A stretch of DNA of 10,026 nucleotides from Thermoflexales bacterium. Its GTDB lineage: Bacteria; Chloroflexota; Anaerolineae; Fen-1058. A program made the translations under genes and the position numbers. The notes under the pieces were generated by a model that saw only the letters and a list, made by a program, of their open reading frames with translations, searched no databases and had not been told where the DNA came from. Shown here one piece after another: positions 3,457-10,026 of this stretch (within the stretch, counting starts at the first letter, position 1; each line of letters begins with the position of its first letter). The stretch spans positions 1 through 10,026 of the forward strand of contig JAUQXD010001012.1 of the NCBI GenBank assembly GCA_030834835.1, written 5' to 3'.

Positions 3457-4113
3457 ATGCGAATCAATCATTGGGCTTTGTGGTGTAGCCTACTTTTGGT
3501 GGCGCTGGTCGCGTCTGCCAATCTGACCGGGCCGATTGCCTGGGCATCGCACTTGGAGCAGCCGAAGTTGCAGGCGACACCATGCTTTCCAGGCACAGTG
3601 CCCTGTCCCAAGACTAGGACACCTACCCCGCCGCCGCCTGCGCCCACCGACACGCGCGAGCCGAACCCACCCAAAGAACCGACGGCGACGCCTGTGCCGG
3701 TTACACCGCCGACCGGATCAACAGTCACACCTGTGCCATCGCGAACCGCCACCGTCATTACAACGACCCTGAAGCCCAGCGTCACACCCACAGCTAAGAC
3801 GCCGACGCCCACATCAACGCTGGCCGCAGTAACGCTTACCGCAACGGCGAGTGTCACGCCTGAAACCACACCCACGGCCACGCAGACAGTCGCGCCGCCC
3901 ACGCCGACGAGTGAGACTGCGTCCGTTGCGCCCGGCAACTCGACCACGCCCTCTACCGTTGCGATTCCCATAGTGACCGGCGGTGGAAACGAGCAGGCTG
4001 CGGACGCCAACGCCGACAACTCCGCGCCGACCCTGCTGCTGATCGGCAGCGCCGGCCTGATCATTGTCGGCGGCTGGCTGTTGTTTGGCCGGCGTTCCAG
4101 GAAATCAGCATGA
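3457..4113 (+). CDS. Secreted Thr/Pro-rich stalk protein with C-terminal membrane anchor
   Basis: A 218-residue protein with no recognised catalytic domain. Residues 1-30 form a signal peptide with a likely cleavage site after AWA (residues 28-30). Residues 40-50 hold the only two cysteines of the mature chain (C43 and C50), possibly a disulfide. Residues 52-170 are a low-complexity Thr/Pro/Ala/Val stalk with TPT, TAT and PVTP runs, typical of an extended, possibly O-glycosylated cell-wall spacer. Residues 191-210 form a hydrophobic helix followed by the basic tail RRSRKSA. The architecture resembles a sortase substrate, but no LPxTG is visible, so I infer a simple transmembrane anchor. The stop codon overlaps the next start by 4 bp (ATGA), so it is translated together with the glycoside hydrolase. 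It may tether or display that enzyme or act as a structural surface protein; this is inference. Confidence 0.8.
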   Translation: MRINHWALWCSLLLVALVASANLTGPIAWASHLEQPKLQATPCFPGTVPCPKTRTPTPPPPAPTDTREPNPPKEPTATPVPVTPPTGSTVTPVPSRTATVITTTLKPSVTPTAKTPTPTSTLAAVTLTATASVTPETTPTATQTVAPPTPTSETASVAPGNSTTPSTVAIPIVTGGGNEQAADANADNSAPTLLLIGSAGLIIVGGWLLFGRRSRKSA

Positions 4114-5504
4114 CCCATCGGTTCGATGTGCGGCGCGGGCTGGGCCTGATCCTGCTGATCATCGGCTTGGCCCTGCCCGTCGTTTACTTTGCCAATCAAG
4201 CGATCCGGCCCGCGCCCCGATCGACGCTCGCGCCAACCGCCACGCCCATCGTCGAGCGGTTGATTCCCACCGTCGGGCCGACTGTCGCAGTGACAGACAG
4301 CCCGGCTCCAACTCGACTAACTCGCACTATCGTGGTTATAGCCGCAGCCACGGCTACGGCTTCTTCAACACCGCGCGCCACCAAAACTGCTACCAGGCAA
4401 ATCGCCACAGTTGCGACCCGCGCCGTAACCCGCATCACAAGCCAGGCTGCGACACTCACCGCGACCCGCGCCGCAACTCGCACCGCGACCCGCACCGCAA
4501 CACAGACGCTCGCACCGACGGCGACGCCTGATCGATCGCCTTCGTTCAGCCCGACGCCAGCCCAGGCTACCGCCACTTCACGCCCTGTCGTTATCAGCGG
4601 CTCGCGCTGGCGCTTTGGCGTCGGCGTCAGTTTGCCCGCCCCGCACATTGCGCGCCTGGCTGACCTGGGCGCCGGCTGGTTCCTGGACTGGAGCAGCCTG
4701 GCGCCGGCTGGCCGGCCCGCTGGCCCGGCCTACATGCGCATGGTGCGGCTGTCCCAGGGCCAACCCAGACCCGCACTAACCGAACTGGCCGACATCGCAC
4801 AGCGCAGCCCTGGCTCACTGTGGCTGATCGGCAATGAGCCGGACGTGATCTGGCAAGACAACACCACGCCGGATCAGTACGTGCAAGCCTATCACGACGC
4901 ATACTCGGCGCTGAAACAGGCTGATCCAACCAGCCGCATCGCGATTGCGGGTGTCAGCCAGCCCACGCCGCTGCGCCTGCAATATCTCGATCGCATCCTG
5001 GCGCTCTATCGCGAACGCTTTGGCGAAGACATGCCCATCGACGTGTGGAACGTGCATAACTTCATCCTGCCGGAGAAGCGCGGCGATTGGGGCGTGGATA
5101 TTCCGCCCGGCTTGACGGCCAGCAGCGGCCTGATCGTAGACATCGAAGATCACGACAACCTGGCGCGCTTCAAACAGCAAATCGTGGACTTTCGCCGGTG
5201 GATGGCCGAGCGGGGCTTCCGCGATAAGGAACTGATCGTGTCTGAGTACGGAGTGTTGATGTACGAGGACTTCGGCTTTGGTTACGAGCGCGTGCGCACC
5301 TTTATGCTGGGCACGTTCGACTACTTCCTTTCGGCCACCGATGGCGCGATCGGATTGCCGTCGGACGGCAATCGACTGGTGCAGCGCTGGTGCTGGTATA
5401 GCCTGTCGGACACGCAATATCCTACGGGCAATCTGGTTGATCGGGCGACGGGGCAACTCTCGGCGCTGGGGCAAGACTTTGTGGAGTATGTCAATTCGCA
5501 CTGA
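4110..5504 (+). CDS. Membrane-anchored clan-A-type glycoside hydrolase with Thr/Arg-rich stalk
   Basis: A 464-residue protein. Residues 11-31 form an N-terminal membrane helix. Residues 35-163 are a low-complexity linker rich in Thr, Ala and Arg, with ATRT-like repeats at about residues 92-133. Residues 165-464 resemble a (beta/alpha)8 glycosidase of the Asl1/GH-A type. The motif LWLIGNEPD gives a candidate acid/base Glu243, and ELIVSEYGVL gives a candidate nucleophile Glu379; both fall at strand ends as the clan expects. The motif VWNVHNF between them carries a conserved-looking His. The enzyme probably cleaves a beta-linked glycan outside the cell, but the substrate cannot be read from sequence. 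Its start overlaps the stop of the stalk protein (ATGA). The stop codon lies beside the left arm of the inverted repeat around the four-helix-bundle gene, 16 bases from that convergent gene's end. Confidence 0.8.
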   Translation: MTHRFDVRRGLGLILLIIGLALPVVYFANQAIRPAPRSTLAPTATPIVERLIPTVGPTVAVTDSPAPTRLTRTIVVIAAATATASSTPRATKTATRQIATVATRAVTRITSQAATLTATRAATRTATRTATQTLAPTATPDRSPSFSPTPAQATATSRPVVISGSRWRFGVGVSLPAPHIARLADLGAGWFLDWSSLAPAGRPAGPAYMRMVRLSQGQPRPALTELADIAQRSPGSLWLIGNEPDVIWQDNTTPDQYVQAYHDAYSALKQADPTSRIAIAGVSQPTPLRLQYLDRILALYRERFGEDMPIDVWNVHNFILPEKRGDWGVDIPPGLTASSGLIVDIEDHDNLARFKQQIVDFRRWMAERGFRDKELIVSEYGVLMYEDFGFGYERVRTFMLGTFDYFLSATDGAIGLPSDGNRLVQRWCWYSLSDTQYPTGNLVDRATGQLSALGQDFVEYVNSH

Positions 5505-5508
5505 ATCA

Positions 5509-5531
5509 GCGAATAGCGGGTCAGCGAGGGG
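5509..5531. repeat. Left arm of 23-bp inverted repeat around the four-helix-bundle gene
   Basis: This arm is the inverted partner of bases 5932-5954, matching at 20 of 23 positions. It contains the stop codon (5521-5523) of the minus-strand four-helix-bundle gene and begins four bases after the glycoside hydrolase stop. Internally it is made of 7-8-base units of the AGCGAAT type. Confidence 0.75.
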
Positions 5532-5925
5532 TGTTGCGCTGAAGATTGAGTTCCGTGATCAATAGTGCGATGACTTCGTCCAACAGAGCCAGGCGGTGCT
5601 CAAGCACTTCAGGCGACAACAATTGGCGGCCGCGCTGATACCAGCCTTTCGACTCGCGCGCCGAACCCAGGGCAATCCGCAGAAAATATTGGCGCTCTTT
5701 GCCAAAACCACGGCCATGTCCCTCTTCCATGTTGGCGCTGATTGAGCCAACGCTGTCGATCATTTGCCCGGCAACCTTGCGGCCACGAGCATCTTTCAAC
5801 AATTTTCCGCAGTCTTCCCAACAAAGATCGTATAGGAAGAGGGCCTTCTGGTACATCACCGATTTCCAGATCGGCTCAGCCTTGATGCGCGGATGCACGC
5901 TCGTTAACCAGTCGTCATACTTCAT
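5521..5925 (-). CDS. Four-helix-bundle protein (S23/IVP, Avd-like family)
   Basis: A 134-residue protein of the 23S-rRNA-intervening-sequence (IVP) four-helix-bundle family, to which the accessory Avd proteins of diversity-generating retroelements are structurally related. The hallmark is residues 60-92, GSISANMEEGHGRG followed by ERQYFLRIALGSARE, matching the usual SI-x-ANI-EG and FLRIALGS-x-E pattern. Length is typical. Family members form oligomers and are basic; their cellular role is generally unknown. The start ATG overlaps the stop of receiver 2 by 4 bp. A GAGAGG Shine-Dalgarno six or seven bases upstream lies at the edge of the right inverted-repeat arm; the stop lies in the left arm. 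No reverse transcriptase or variable repeat is nearby, so there is no support for a retroelement. It is the last gene of the signalling operon and may be a recent addition. Confidence 0.85.
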   Translation of the reverse strand: MKYDDWLTSVHPRIKAEPIWKSVMYQKALFLYDLCWEDCGKLLKDARGRKVAGQMIDSVGSISANMEEGHGRGFGKERQYFLRIALGSARESKGWYQRGRQLLSPEVLEHRLALLDEVIALLITELNLQRNTPR

Positions 5926-6338
5926 GCCAGACCTCTCGCTGATTCGCTATTCGCGGATTTGTTGATTCGCTGACTGGTGCGCGCCAGCACGGTCTTTAAC
6001 TGTCTGGTGAGGTTGCTGGGGGTGATGGGTTTGGCCAGATATTCGTCGGCGCCCACCTCCATGCCGCGCGCCACACTCTCCGGGTCGGCCTTGCCGGACA
6101 GCATCACCACCGCCACGTGTCGGATGGCCGGGTTCGATCGGACCCAGCGGCAGACCTCATAGCCGTCCATGCCCGGCATCATCACATCCAGCAGAATCAC
6201 GTCCGGCACGACCTCGGTCAACACCGTCAGCGCTTCCTGCCCGCCCGGCGCCGAATGTATTTGATAGCCATCGAGTTTGAGAATGAGACTGAGCACTTTG
6301 CGGGCGTCAGGATCATCCTCGACAATCAATGCTTTCAT
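5922..6338 (-). CDS. Receiver-only response regulator 2 (CheY-like)
   Basis: A 138-residue single receiver domain with no output domain. The acidic pocket is E7, D8, D9; the phosphoacceptor is D51 in ILLDVMMPGMDGYE; the switch residue is S81 in VVMLSGKA; the conserved Lys is K103 in YLAKPI. All residues needed for phosphorylation are present. The receiver fold ends near residue 120. Residues 121-138 (TSQRINKSANSESARGLA) are encoded by the 7-8-base repeat at the right side of the four-helix-bundle cassette, so the natural end of the gene seems to have been replaced. Its start overlaps the stop of receiver 1 by 4 bp and its stop overlaps the four-helix-bundle start by 4 bp. It probably takes phosphate from the adjacent kinase and acts by protein contact. 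Confidence 0.92.
   Translation of the reverse strand: MKALIVEDDPDARKVLSLILKLDGYQIHSAPGGQEALTVLTEVVPDVILLDVMMPGMDGYEVCRWVRSNPAIRHVAVVMLSGKADPESVARGMEVGADEYLAKPITPSNLTRQLKTVLARTSQRINKSANSESARGLA
5932..5954. repeat. Right arm of 23-bp inverted repeat around the four-helix-bundle gene
   Basis: This arm is the inverted partner of bases 5509-5531, with mismatches at only three positions. On the minus strand its last bases supply GAGAGG, the ribosome-binding site of the four-helix-bundle gene. Related 7-8-base units (GATTCGCT, ATTCGCG, GATTTGTT) continue from the arm to about base 5973, inside the 3' end of receiver 2. Confidence 0.75.
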
Positions 6339-8931: not shown

Positions 8932-9798
8932 ATGACACTCACTTCGTCGGCGCTCACCGCGCCCCGCTACCTCATCACCGACATGGATGGCGTCTTATGG
9001 CGCGGCCAGGAACCGATGCCGGGCCTGGTCGAGTTCTTCCGCTTCTTGCGAGCGGAAAACGTCCGATTTGTCTGCGCTACGAACAATGCCTCGACGCTGG
9101 CGGAGAAGTTGGCCGAGCGCCTGCAGGGCTGGGGGGCAGATGTCACGCCCGATGAGATCGTCACGTCCTCGACGGCCACCGCCGATTATCTGGCGACGAT
9201 TTTGCCCCAGGGTTCACGCCTGTACGTCGTCGGCATGGAGGGGCTGCGCGCGCCGCTGCGCGATCGAGGATTTAAGATCGCCGAGCAGGATGTGGCTGCC
9301 GCGGCGAATGTGGCTGCCGCGGCAGATGTTGCCGCCGTTGTCGTCGGCATCGATTGGAACGTCACGTATAATCAACTCAAGCAGGCGGCGCTGCTCATTC
9401 GCCGGGGAGCGAAGTTCATCGGCACGAACAGTGATCGCACCTTTCCTTCGCCGGAGGGAATTATCCCCGGCGCTGGTGCGTTGCTCGCCCTGATCGAAAC
9501 CGCGACCGATGTGAAGCCGATCGTGATTGGCAAACCCGAGCCGGTATTGTACGAGATGTCGTTGAAACGCATGAACGCTGTGCCCGGACAGACGCTAGTG
9601 CTGGGTGATCGCCTGGAGACCGACATCCTGGGCGCGGTGCGGCTGAATCTTAAATCAGCGCTGGTGCTCAGCGGCGTCACCACGCGTGAGGAATTGACCC
9701 ACAGCGACTATCAACCCGACTGGGTGTTTGATGACATTTCAGATTTGATAAAGAATTGGGCAATGATCAATGCACAATTCACAATGCATAATTCATAG
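8932..9798 (+). CDS. HAD-IIA family hydrolase (NagD / nitrophenylphosphatase-like)
   Basis: A 288-residue phosphatase of the haloacid dehalogenase superfamily, subclass IIA. Motif I is TDMDGVLW with nucleophile Asp17 and acid/base Asp19; motif II is ATNNAS with Thr50; motif III is GKPEP with Lys201; motif IV is GDRLETDI with Asp226 and Asp231 for Mg2+. The cap domain lies between motifs II and III. It probably dephosphorylates small sugar or nucleotide phosphates in the cytosol; the exact substrate is not readable. ATG at 8932 follows AGGAG and a near-consensus promoter. Residues about 120-137 (DVAAAANVAAAADVAA) come from an 18-bp tandem duplication in the cap region. The final residues NAQFTMHNS and the stop codon lie in a heptamer array, so the natural C-terminus has probably been changed. 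Confidence 0.9.
   Translation: MTLTSSALTAPRYLITDMDGVLWRGQEPMPGLVEFFRFLRAENVRFVCATNNASTLAEKLAERLQGWGADVTPDEIVTSSTATADYLATILPQGSRLYVVGMEGLRAPLRDRGFKIAEQDVAAAANVAAAADVAAVVVGIDWNVTYNQLKQAALLIRRGAKFIGTNSDRTFPSPEGIIPGAGALLALIETATDVKPIVIGKPEPVLYEMSLKRMNAVPGQTLVLGDRLETDILGAVRLNLKSALVLSGVTTREELTHSDYQPDWVFDDISDLIKNWAMINAQFTMHNS
9289..9342. repeat. 18-bp tandem repeat in the HAD gene
   Basis: Units at 9289-9306 and 9307-9324 differ at only two positions; a degenerate third follows at 9325-9342. Each unit encodes six residues of the DVAAAA/NVAAAA/DVAAVV type, so copy-number change keeps the reading frame. It lies in the cap domain before the strand VVVGIDWN. Confidence 0.8.
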
Positions 9799-9886
9799 TT
9801 CATAATGCCAATCACCAGTTGACCGATTACCAATCGACCGATTGACCAATCACCAATTTACCAATCTACCAATCTCCCAACTTACC
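9769..9886. repeat. Heptamer/octamer array from the HAD 3' end to the rlmN start codon
   Basis: The first part (9769-9809) is 7-base units such as AATGCAC, AATTCAC, AATGCAT, AATTCAT, AGTTCAT. The second part (9810-9886) is ten 7-8-base units ending in ACC or CCC, such as AATCACC, GATTGACC, AATTTACC, AATCTACC. The last unit, AACTTACC, abuts the ATG of rlmN exactly. The HAD stop codon (9796-9798) lies inside the array. No ribosome-binding site, terminator or promoter is evident in it. Confidence 0.85.
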
Positions 9887-10026
9887 ATGCCCACTCCTCA
9901 ATCTTCTCTCTATGATCTCTCGTTCGATCAACTCCAGGCCCGTTTGACGGAGTGGGGGCAGCCAGCCTTTCGCGCCAGACAAATCTGGGACTGGCTGTAC
10001 GTCCGATTGTCCGATCGCTACAACGG
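9887..10026 (+). CDS. rlmN: 23S rRNA (adenine-2503-C2)-methyltransferase RlmN, 3' partial
   Basis: Only the first 46 codons are in the window. The N-terminal pattern YDLSFDQLQARLTEWGQPAFRARQIWDWLYVR matches the RlmN accessory domain (L-x-x-W-G-x-P-x-FRA-x-QI-x-x-WLY), which binds rRNA or tRNA ahead of the radical-SAM barrel. RlmN methylates A2503 of 23S rRNA, and in many bacteria A37 of some tRNAs, using two SAM molecules. The CxxxCxxC cluster motif lies beyond the window, so Cfr, a paralogue, cannot be fully excluded, but RlmN is far more likely. No Shine-Dalgarno precedes the ATG; the leader is a repeat array. A possible downstream start is not obvious. Confidence 0.85.
   Translation, partial: MPTPQSSLYDLSFDQLQARLTEWGQPAFRARQIWDWLYVRLSDRYN

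Follow-up and report, generated by a model that had tools for sequence, protein, structure and literature searches.

S23-family genes framed by inverted arrays of 7-8-nt units: a candidate family of mobile repeat cassettes

To our knowledge, S23/IVP proteins have had no agreed function since their discovery, and an S23 gene that is almost exactly enclosed by an inverted repeat raises the question of what such an arrangement represents. The gene lies in a window of 10,026 nucleotides, which is the whole of contig C604 in a fragmented Anaerolineae MAG (G000; 6.48 Mb in 1452 contigs, 90.7% complete). The initial annotation read gene and repeat as a possible minimal, non-autonomous mobile cassette. 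Comparisons include the congener G001 (assembly 73% complete) and a same-family relative, G004. Genes were called with a home-made dicodon scorer, and the gene names coxM, coxS, argS, dcd, fadB, fadA, polA, rpiB, tal and carbamoyltransferase were read from the sequences, without a family search. The locus comprises the following features:

4110..5504, + strand: glycoside-hydrolase-like (GH) gene; PF11790 at 19.4 bits, below the cut-off of 21
5504..5531, + strand: arm 1, array of the octamer AATCAGCGAATAGCGGGTCAGCGAGGGG, sense to the GH gene and antisense to S23
5521..5925, - strand: S23 / 23S_rRNA_IVP four-helix-bundle ORF, 134 aa (PF05635, TIGR02436, AF2, Foldseek)
5926..5975, - strand: arm 2, array of the octamer, in sense orientation relative to both S23 and the receiver gene before it
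5932..5937, - strand: GAGAGG, resembling a Shine-Dalgarno sequence for S23, where arm 2 ends on its inner side (read from sequence)
5922..6338, - strand: response-regulator receiver gene, upstream of S23; PF00072, E 1.2e-29

The inverted repeat is real. Its arms match at 20 of 23 positions over 23 nt (5509-5531 and 5932-5954), as first described, and can be extended to 34 nt (5504-5537 and 5926-5959; 28 of 34 matching). None of 5000 mononucleotide shuffles reached the local-alignment score of the two window flanks, which is 17. There is indeed no other gene between the arms, and they do provide a stop codon on one side and a ribosome-binding site on the other. Arm 1 overlaps the 3' end and stop codon of the S23 gene, whereas arm 2 ends where AGAGG (5936-5932, read from sequence) precedes the S23 ATG. 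The TGA of the GH gene (5502-5504) abuts the array of arm 1, and the receiver TGA overlaps the S23 ATG. The last receiver codons are array sequence, unlike those of the congener: arm 2 encodes a C-terminal tail without which the G001 receiver gene ends, and the two proteins are 87.9% identical over residues 1-124.

The assignment to a four-helix-bundle gene of the S23/IVP family also holds. The product matches PF05635 (E 5e-12; 46.4 bits against a cut-off of 33.8) and TIGR02436 (E 3.2e-14; 53.1 bits against a cut-off of 24), and its AF2 monomer model (pLDDT 95.3) has the predicted four-helix-bundle fold of XCC0516 and BT_0352. In a Foldseek search with this model, chains of 2gsc and 2rld fill the first ten places (best E 7e-4), and the DGR Avd chains 8ube and 4dwl are weaker matches (E 0.14-0.32, TM about 0.67-0.8). 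Homopentamer formation is a further criterion of the S23 / 23S_rRNA_IVP family. This family is large, because 7383 of the 8000 candidates scored in a protein search have E <= 0.001. Among Pfam families, PF05635 is the only match of the window protein at E <= 0.001, and no nuclease, transposase or reverse-transcriptase family matched. RVT_1 has no match in G000 (90.7% complete); among 60 relatives it occurs in 21, and PF05635 in 42. A reverse-transcriptase partner was considered for S23 and is unsupported, given the lack of RVT_1 in G000 and of any recurrent neighbour: no neighbouring ORF is shared by more than nine of 93 S23 loci.

Both arms are built as arrays from a degenerate octamer, GCGAATCA, whose variants include the heptamer GCGAATA, and this unit is dispersed in the genome. 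Allowing two mismatches, AATCAGCGAATAGCG has 18 matches in G000, some of them within coding sequence, versus 6 for the reversed control. With one mismatch allowed, AGCGAATCAGCGAAT has 34 matches in G000 and 25 in G001, versus none for the reversed control in either genome, and 6, 4 and 3 matches in G002, G003 and G004, respectively. Counts of GCGTGGTGCGTGGTGC are given without a control, because the reversed heptamer reads identically and is therefore uninformative: 69 in G000, 86 in G001, 94 in G004 and at most 12 in the others.

In the fetched loci of G000 and G001, we delimited 45 GCGAATCA arrays, three of which have no callable upstream gene. Among the other 42, 36 are sense to the upstream gene and 6 are antisense (binomial p 2.8e-6, relatedness ignored), and in 18 of the 36 sense arrays the upstream stop codon ends at most 12 nt from the array start. 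The initial annotation would have given up the cassette if the arms were just two of many randomly oriented copies of a common repeat. The repeat is common, with copies in dozens of places, but their orientation is not random. Three of the six antisense arrays (L128, L143 and L144) are the far members of inverted array pairs, and such pairs occur without S23 at L128, L143, L144 and L148. The ideal octamer has no stop codon in any sense frame and a TGA in all antisense frames. Seven GCGAATCA arrays (L123, L126, L129, L133, L135, L158 and L161) are deep within long ORFs, in the sense of the ORF and at least 478 nt from its stop, and are possibly in-frame insertions into coding sequence.

Framing by inverted repeats recurs at other S23 genes. 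A locus was called framed if the inverted match of its flanks scored at least 12. This was so for 20 of 26 S23 loci in a first set from G000 and relatives, which carry on either side arrays of a unit particular to the locus; the control spans of this set partly overlapped cassettes, and we rely on later controls. A named set consists of the best 80 of 240 relatives, mostly from Chloroflexota/Anaerolineae, with MAGs of KSB1, Calditrichaceae, Poribacteria, Latescibacterota and Armatimonadetes, and at least eight of these loci are the same places as loci of the first set. After L180, L201 and L241 were dropped for short flanks, 77 loci were scored. A score of at least 12 was found at 68 of the 77, versus 20 of 2740 spans drawn at random from these loci; 59 reach 14, and 49 reach 16, versus 3 of the 2740 spans. 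Because direct repeats between flanks also exceed the control at a score of 12, though less (22/77 versus 37/2740), the arms are not always purely inverted. Divergent PF05635 loci from across the phylum were framed in 16 of 28 cases, versus 7 of 327 controls (L321 dropped), and paralogues from six genomes in 28 of 36 cases tested, versus 3 of 316 controls (without L348; L033, L216 and L343 are one and the same place). All these random-span and shuffle comparisons ignore relatedness, and the loci are phylogenetically non-independent.

In G042, which has 19 PF05635 matches, 15 of the 17 S23 genes tested are framed, mostly by different units; in the other five genomes of the paralogue set, part of the PF05635 matches was tested. 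The framing threshold was not reached by 9 of 77 named, 12 of 28 divergent and 8 of 36 paralogue loci, the last including all four tested in G004. The S23 gene on contig C208 of G004 (L361) has no recognisable arrays. By its upstream sequence, this locus is apparently the same site as L347 (contig C202 of G003), and arrays are present only in G003, which suggests that arrays can be lost while S23 stays.

The architecture of these loci was compared among 93 of them (the 77 named loci and 16 others; L032 and L217 are on the same contig and are counted twice), of which 83 are framed. The frame arrays typically have 7-8-nt units. In the orientation of S23, the upstream array is purine-rich in 77 of the 83 framed loci and, judged by eye, often reads GC(A/G)A(A/G)T with one or two additional bases. 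Where a neighbour was called, it is codirectional with S23 upstream in 70 of 73 framed loci and downstream in 70 of 76, and 58 of the 83 have codirectional called neighbours on both sides. The matched arm, which often covers part of the array, starts at most 3 nt from the upstream stop codon in 19 of 69 loci and at most 10 nt from it in 35 of 69. A common order at the junctions is stop codon, array, ribosome-binding site, S23, inverted array, ribosome-binding site and the next ATG. The window S23 is less typical among framed loci, in that the gene beyond its downstream arm is convergent. S23 genes beside coxM-like genes were seen in several genomes (L019, L037, L171, L174, L181, L182 and L221), and coxM-like operons may be a preferred or tolerant site.

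Occupation of a given site varies between relatives. The initial annotation proposed a search for an empty site, and one is present in the congener: the convergent GH and receiver genes of G001 are 6 nt apart, with no S23 gene and no arms. In G003 the gap is ~100 nt and contains no S23 gene and no array-like inverted repeat. Relatives of the GH gene are present in G001, G002, G003 and G004. The flanks of empty sites are too diverged for a target-site duplication, as would be expected of a TIR transposon or MITE, to be read by eye.

Between coxM and coxS, an S23 gene is present in G000, and none of 15 compared relatives with an adjoining coxS has a match to three S23 queries (17 of 30 fetched coxM loci were compared; coxS is beside coxM in 15 of 16 relatives). 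Inverted array pairs without S23, built of other units, lie in this gap in G003, G004 and G010, and were matched by none of 500 shuffles in each case. A further pair seen by eye in G001 is weak (inverted-repeat score 6, reached by 45 of 300 shuffles); with the gap redrawn, its score of 8 was reached by 13 of 500 shuffles, and the pair is doubtful. The corresponding gap of G002 (L251:2400-2560) has a different sequence, GTCATTGCGAGCGCC...GCAATCC, which is not array-like.

Between argS and dcd, for which 17 of 20 fetched argS loci were compared using the three S23 proteins as the only queries, G000 and G003 have S23 genes whose products are 78% identical. G002 has a truncated S23, a remnant of residues 55-107, and no S23 was found there in G004 or G013. 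The G004 gap carries an S23-less inverted array pair (0/500 shuffles). Nothing array-like was found in G002 or G013 at the gaps tested.

One S23 type was found at different places in two congeners. The coxM|coxS S23 of G000 has an 81%-identical relative in G001 that lies between two carbamoyltransferase-like genes, and ATAGTGCG-type arrays are common to both copies; in G000, all six S23 genes that were found lie in contexts other than this carbamoyltransferase-like one. This two-site case could reflect duplication and reciprocal loss. Some S23 copies look stable, because an S23 gene just upstream of a polA-like gene was found in G000, G001 and G003. Among the 80 named S23 genes, seven have a stop codon inside the match, four in the body and three within the last five codons. 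A tblastn search of a plasmid collection with the window S23 protein alone gave no match at E <= 0.01.

The association of S23 genes with arrays, and their co-movement, are well supported. On balance, we favour the explanation that the window feature is one copy of a REP/RAYT-like mobile cassette whose S23 protein recognises its own array. Binding of the arrays by S23, its driving of movement and the chemistry of that movement are what we infer beyond these observations. In such a cassette, two arrays of a degenerate 7-8-nt unit, inverted relative to each other, would enclose a PF05635/S23 gene. The cassette would settle in transcribed gaps, typically after one stop codon and before the next ribosome-binding site, and would probably be transcribed from the upstream gene. 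Each S23 lineage may be specific for one unit of its own, which it would probably recognise in single-stranded form, as RNA or DNA; the S23/Avd-like fold suggests that a pentamer would bind it. S23 together with host enzymes could then spread both cassettes and arrays that lack S23, in the way proposed for RAYT proteins and REPs. The label "non-autonomous" is therefore doubtful for the window copy: S23 is likelier to be the trans-acting part, with S23-less array pairs as the non-autonomous form.

The location of cassettes after a stop codon and ahead of the following ribosome-binding site, codirectional with their neighbours, is also what might be expected of a regulatory RNA, in which operon-internal hairpins for RNA processing or stability are bound by S23 and provide autoregulation, and movement is passive, through recombination between arrays. 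The predominantly sense orientation of solo arrays (36 versus 6) fits this explanation as well, as does the resemblance of the S23 fold to Avd, albeit at the weak Foldseek values given above. Similar heptamer arrays are mostly transcribed according to transcriptome data for Xanthomonas in part of one study (PMC4692102). However, the positions of a conserved regulon should be stable, whereas any given site has a cassette or array pair in some relatives and not in others, and a single genome can have many S23 genes with mostly different units. We consider a purely regulatory role unlikely.

Several results speak for specificity between S23 and unit. Array similarity correlates with S23 identity (Spearman 0.37, p 0.001 with 999 permutations), and does so after removal of 129 pairs with any homologous neighbour (0.34, p 0.001). 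In the pairs that are left, an array score of at least 16 is found for 0.8% of those with less than 40% S23 identity, 54% of those at 70-80% and four of the five above 80%. Among all 93 right arms, the best match to the left arm is the locus's own in 39 of 93 loci, ties included. The idea that one unit corresponds to one S23 lineage is nonetheless only partly true, since GCGARTCA arrays abound without a close relative of the window S23. They are numerous in G013, G022, G034 and G035, and there are 31 matches in G001 (73% complete), all genomes in which no such relative was found. The flanks of the PF05635 genes L035 (G013) and L037 (G022), the two loci viewed, carry units other than GCGARTCA.

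Loci at a fadB|fadA-like site show units changing at one place. Seven loci have both neighbours in common and an eighth, L207, the upstream one only; their units are of GCGAGTT, GAATTGC, GCGAGGG and TTCAAAA types, which differ between species, while within each copy the arms agree in type (own mean 19.0, cross mean 13.4), although the own arm is the single best match in only two of the eight loci, which counts against the favoured reading. One unit class per copy, with different classes between species, is as predicted by template switching, and thus by neutral dynamics, in which tandem slippage and hairpin template switching generate and homogenise inverted arrays in the gaps of operons, and the S23 genes are carried along as passengers. 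The existence of S23-less inverted array pairs is likewise compatible with a neutral origin. Such dynamics do not predict that unit similarity tracks S23 identity at unrelated sites, or that framing is more frequent at S23 genes: a score of at least 14 was found at 59 of 77 S23 loci versus 28 of 203 other gaps of 40-350 nt, with measures that are similar rather than identical. None of these 203 gaps reaches 14 after shuffling; about eight of the 28 have array-like arms, and of these eight one adjoins an S23 gene. We regard neutral dynamics as an improbable account of the whole pattern. A divergent gap at L079:8650-8973 (the same as L196:648-971) has a 26-nt inverted repeat, GTCATTCCCGCGAAGGCGGGAATCCA, that is unlike S23 arrays.

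The tight fit of repeat to gene and the empty site of the congener would also suit an independent element of 446 bp that is bounded by terminal inverted repeats of a fixed 23 bp, and a search for the same arms at other four-helix-bundle genes had been proposed. The five other S23 genes found in G000 have units other than the window's, and the exact words of the window arms are absent from the sequence compared around them, up to ~1.5 kb on each side; fixed terminal repeats are thus rejected. Moreover, it is a dispersed octamer that makes up the arrays of the window arms, and G000 yielded no second gene of the window S23 type. An element with fixed ends is very improbable. What survives of the cassette in the initial annotation is that S23 plus arms behaves as one, with an empty site and with frames elsewhere, but without element-specific 23-bp ends.

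Least credible is a chance meeting of two solo arrays after the 3' ends of convergent genes, with S23 between them by accident: both window arms do fit the solo-array rule (sense, at the 3' ends of the GH and receiver genes) and inverted pairs exist without S23, as at the four loci named above, but S23 loci are framed more often than other gaps, and the frame goes with S23, because elsewhere the downstream arm is inverted even where the downstream gene is codirectional (58 of 83 loci being codirectional on both sides).

RNase III excises the RNA of 23S rRNA IVSs. These elements occur in Leptospira, Coxiella, Brucella and others and carry the S23p ORF, and their mobility was suggested earlier, in a paper whose sections on IVSs also describe tandem heptamers preceding S23p in Coxiella (PMC4990558). 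They share the protein family with the mobile cassette that we favour, and the ORF is in a hairpin-forming transcribed insert for which inverted repeats are discussed in the same sections (PMC4990558). The window ORF is likewise within inverted repeats and, to judge from its codirectional overlap with the receiver gene, in a transcribed unit. It differs from the IVSs in its location, which is not a 23S rRNA gene but a site between GH-like and receiver genes, and the arms of cassettes differ in usually being locus-specific 7-8-nt arrays whose unit is dispersed in the genome.

RAYT genes lie between inverted copies of a repeat with abundant further copies in the genome, and gene-less inverted doublets are described in the same account (PMC2817692). 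As in REP/RAYT systems (BIMEs, REPINs), the window gene is flanked by two inverted copies of a dispersed repeat, and S23-less array pairs resemble the doublets. S23, however, matches no transposase family, unlike the Y1 HUH transposases (PF01797), and its arms are tandem arrays of a non-palindromic octamer instead of single imperfect palindromes. Because location sets the cassette apart from 23S IVSs and the protein sets it apart from REP/RAYT elements, we class it as a variant of S23/IVS-type elements and not as a member of either group. Repeat-framed S23 cassettes look like a previously unrecognised family of mobile repeat elements.

Other systems share single features with these cassettes. 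DGR Avd proteins have a fold similar to that modelled for the window S23; the difference is that S23 has no recurrent neighbour ORF and that G000 has no RVT_1 match that could be a cognate reverse transcriptase. Cyanobacterial STRRs are grouped with the heptamer arrays of Xanthomonas and Nostoc. The sections on these arrays, GGGAATC / GGGGA(C/T)T, describe a placement and orientation rule in Xanthomonas like that of S23 arrays, whereas Nostoc has few inverted pairs and a preference for the non-coding strand (PMC4692102). The terms "S23" and "four helix" have no occurrence in that paper, and X. campestris encodes the S23 protein XCC0516 (2gsc). Abundant 7-nt direct repeats, TAACTGA, are also present between genes of Beggiatoaceae, by a mechanism given as unknown in the relevant part of the source; unlike S23 arrays, they are mostly just upstream of start codons (PMC4679880, with no occurrence of "S23" or "helix bundle"). 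Passages elsewhere place S23 genes in cas loci, for example between cmr3 and cmr2 (PMC3936711), and at scattered rRNA sites of CPR bacteria (PMC11270868), and S23 was the commonest Pfam in a search for DGR-linked immunity, where it was read as Avd-like (PMC10053308). In the accessible portions of the open-access literature, we found no link of PF05635/S23 genes to flanking tandem arrays besides the Coxiella heptamers, and no description of S23 joined to dispersed arrays.

Tentatively, S23/IVP proteins in general could be trans-acting specificity factors of widespread bacterial mobile elements, each paralogue with its own 7-8-nt unit, framing itself and seeding operons with S23-less hairpins and solo arrays. 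rRNA IVSs would then be one niche of these elements, and many orphan arrays, such as those in Xanthomonas, Nostoc and Chloroflexota, would be their footprints. If true, the favoured reading offers a testable answer both to the role of S23/IVP proteins outside rRNA and to the origin of dispersed 7-8-nt tandem arrays. On this reading, every S23 protein should bind the unit of its own arrays, orphan arrays should derive from an S23 gene that still exists or once existed, and the S23 copies in cas loci may be insertions and not pathway components. For annotation, it is a warning that S23 genes and arrays can alter C-termini and operon gaps.

The window also contains arrays away from its S23 gene. 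CACGCAC and ACTCATT-type arrays are at positions 410-461 and 854-896, within the ORF at 2-1342, and the CACGCAC unit corresponds, in reverse complement, to TGCGTGG, which is the unit of the S23 gene on contig C658 of G000. Where the HAD gene ends (9761-9890), its C-terminus is overlapped by a CAATGCACA-type array, and a CCAATCNA-type array follows; CAATGCACA is the unit of the S23 gene on contig C1197 of G000.
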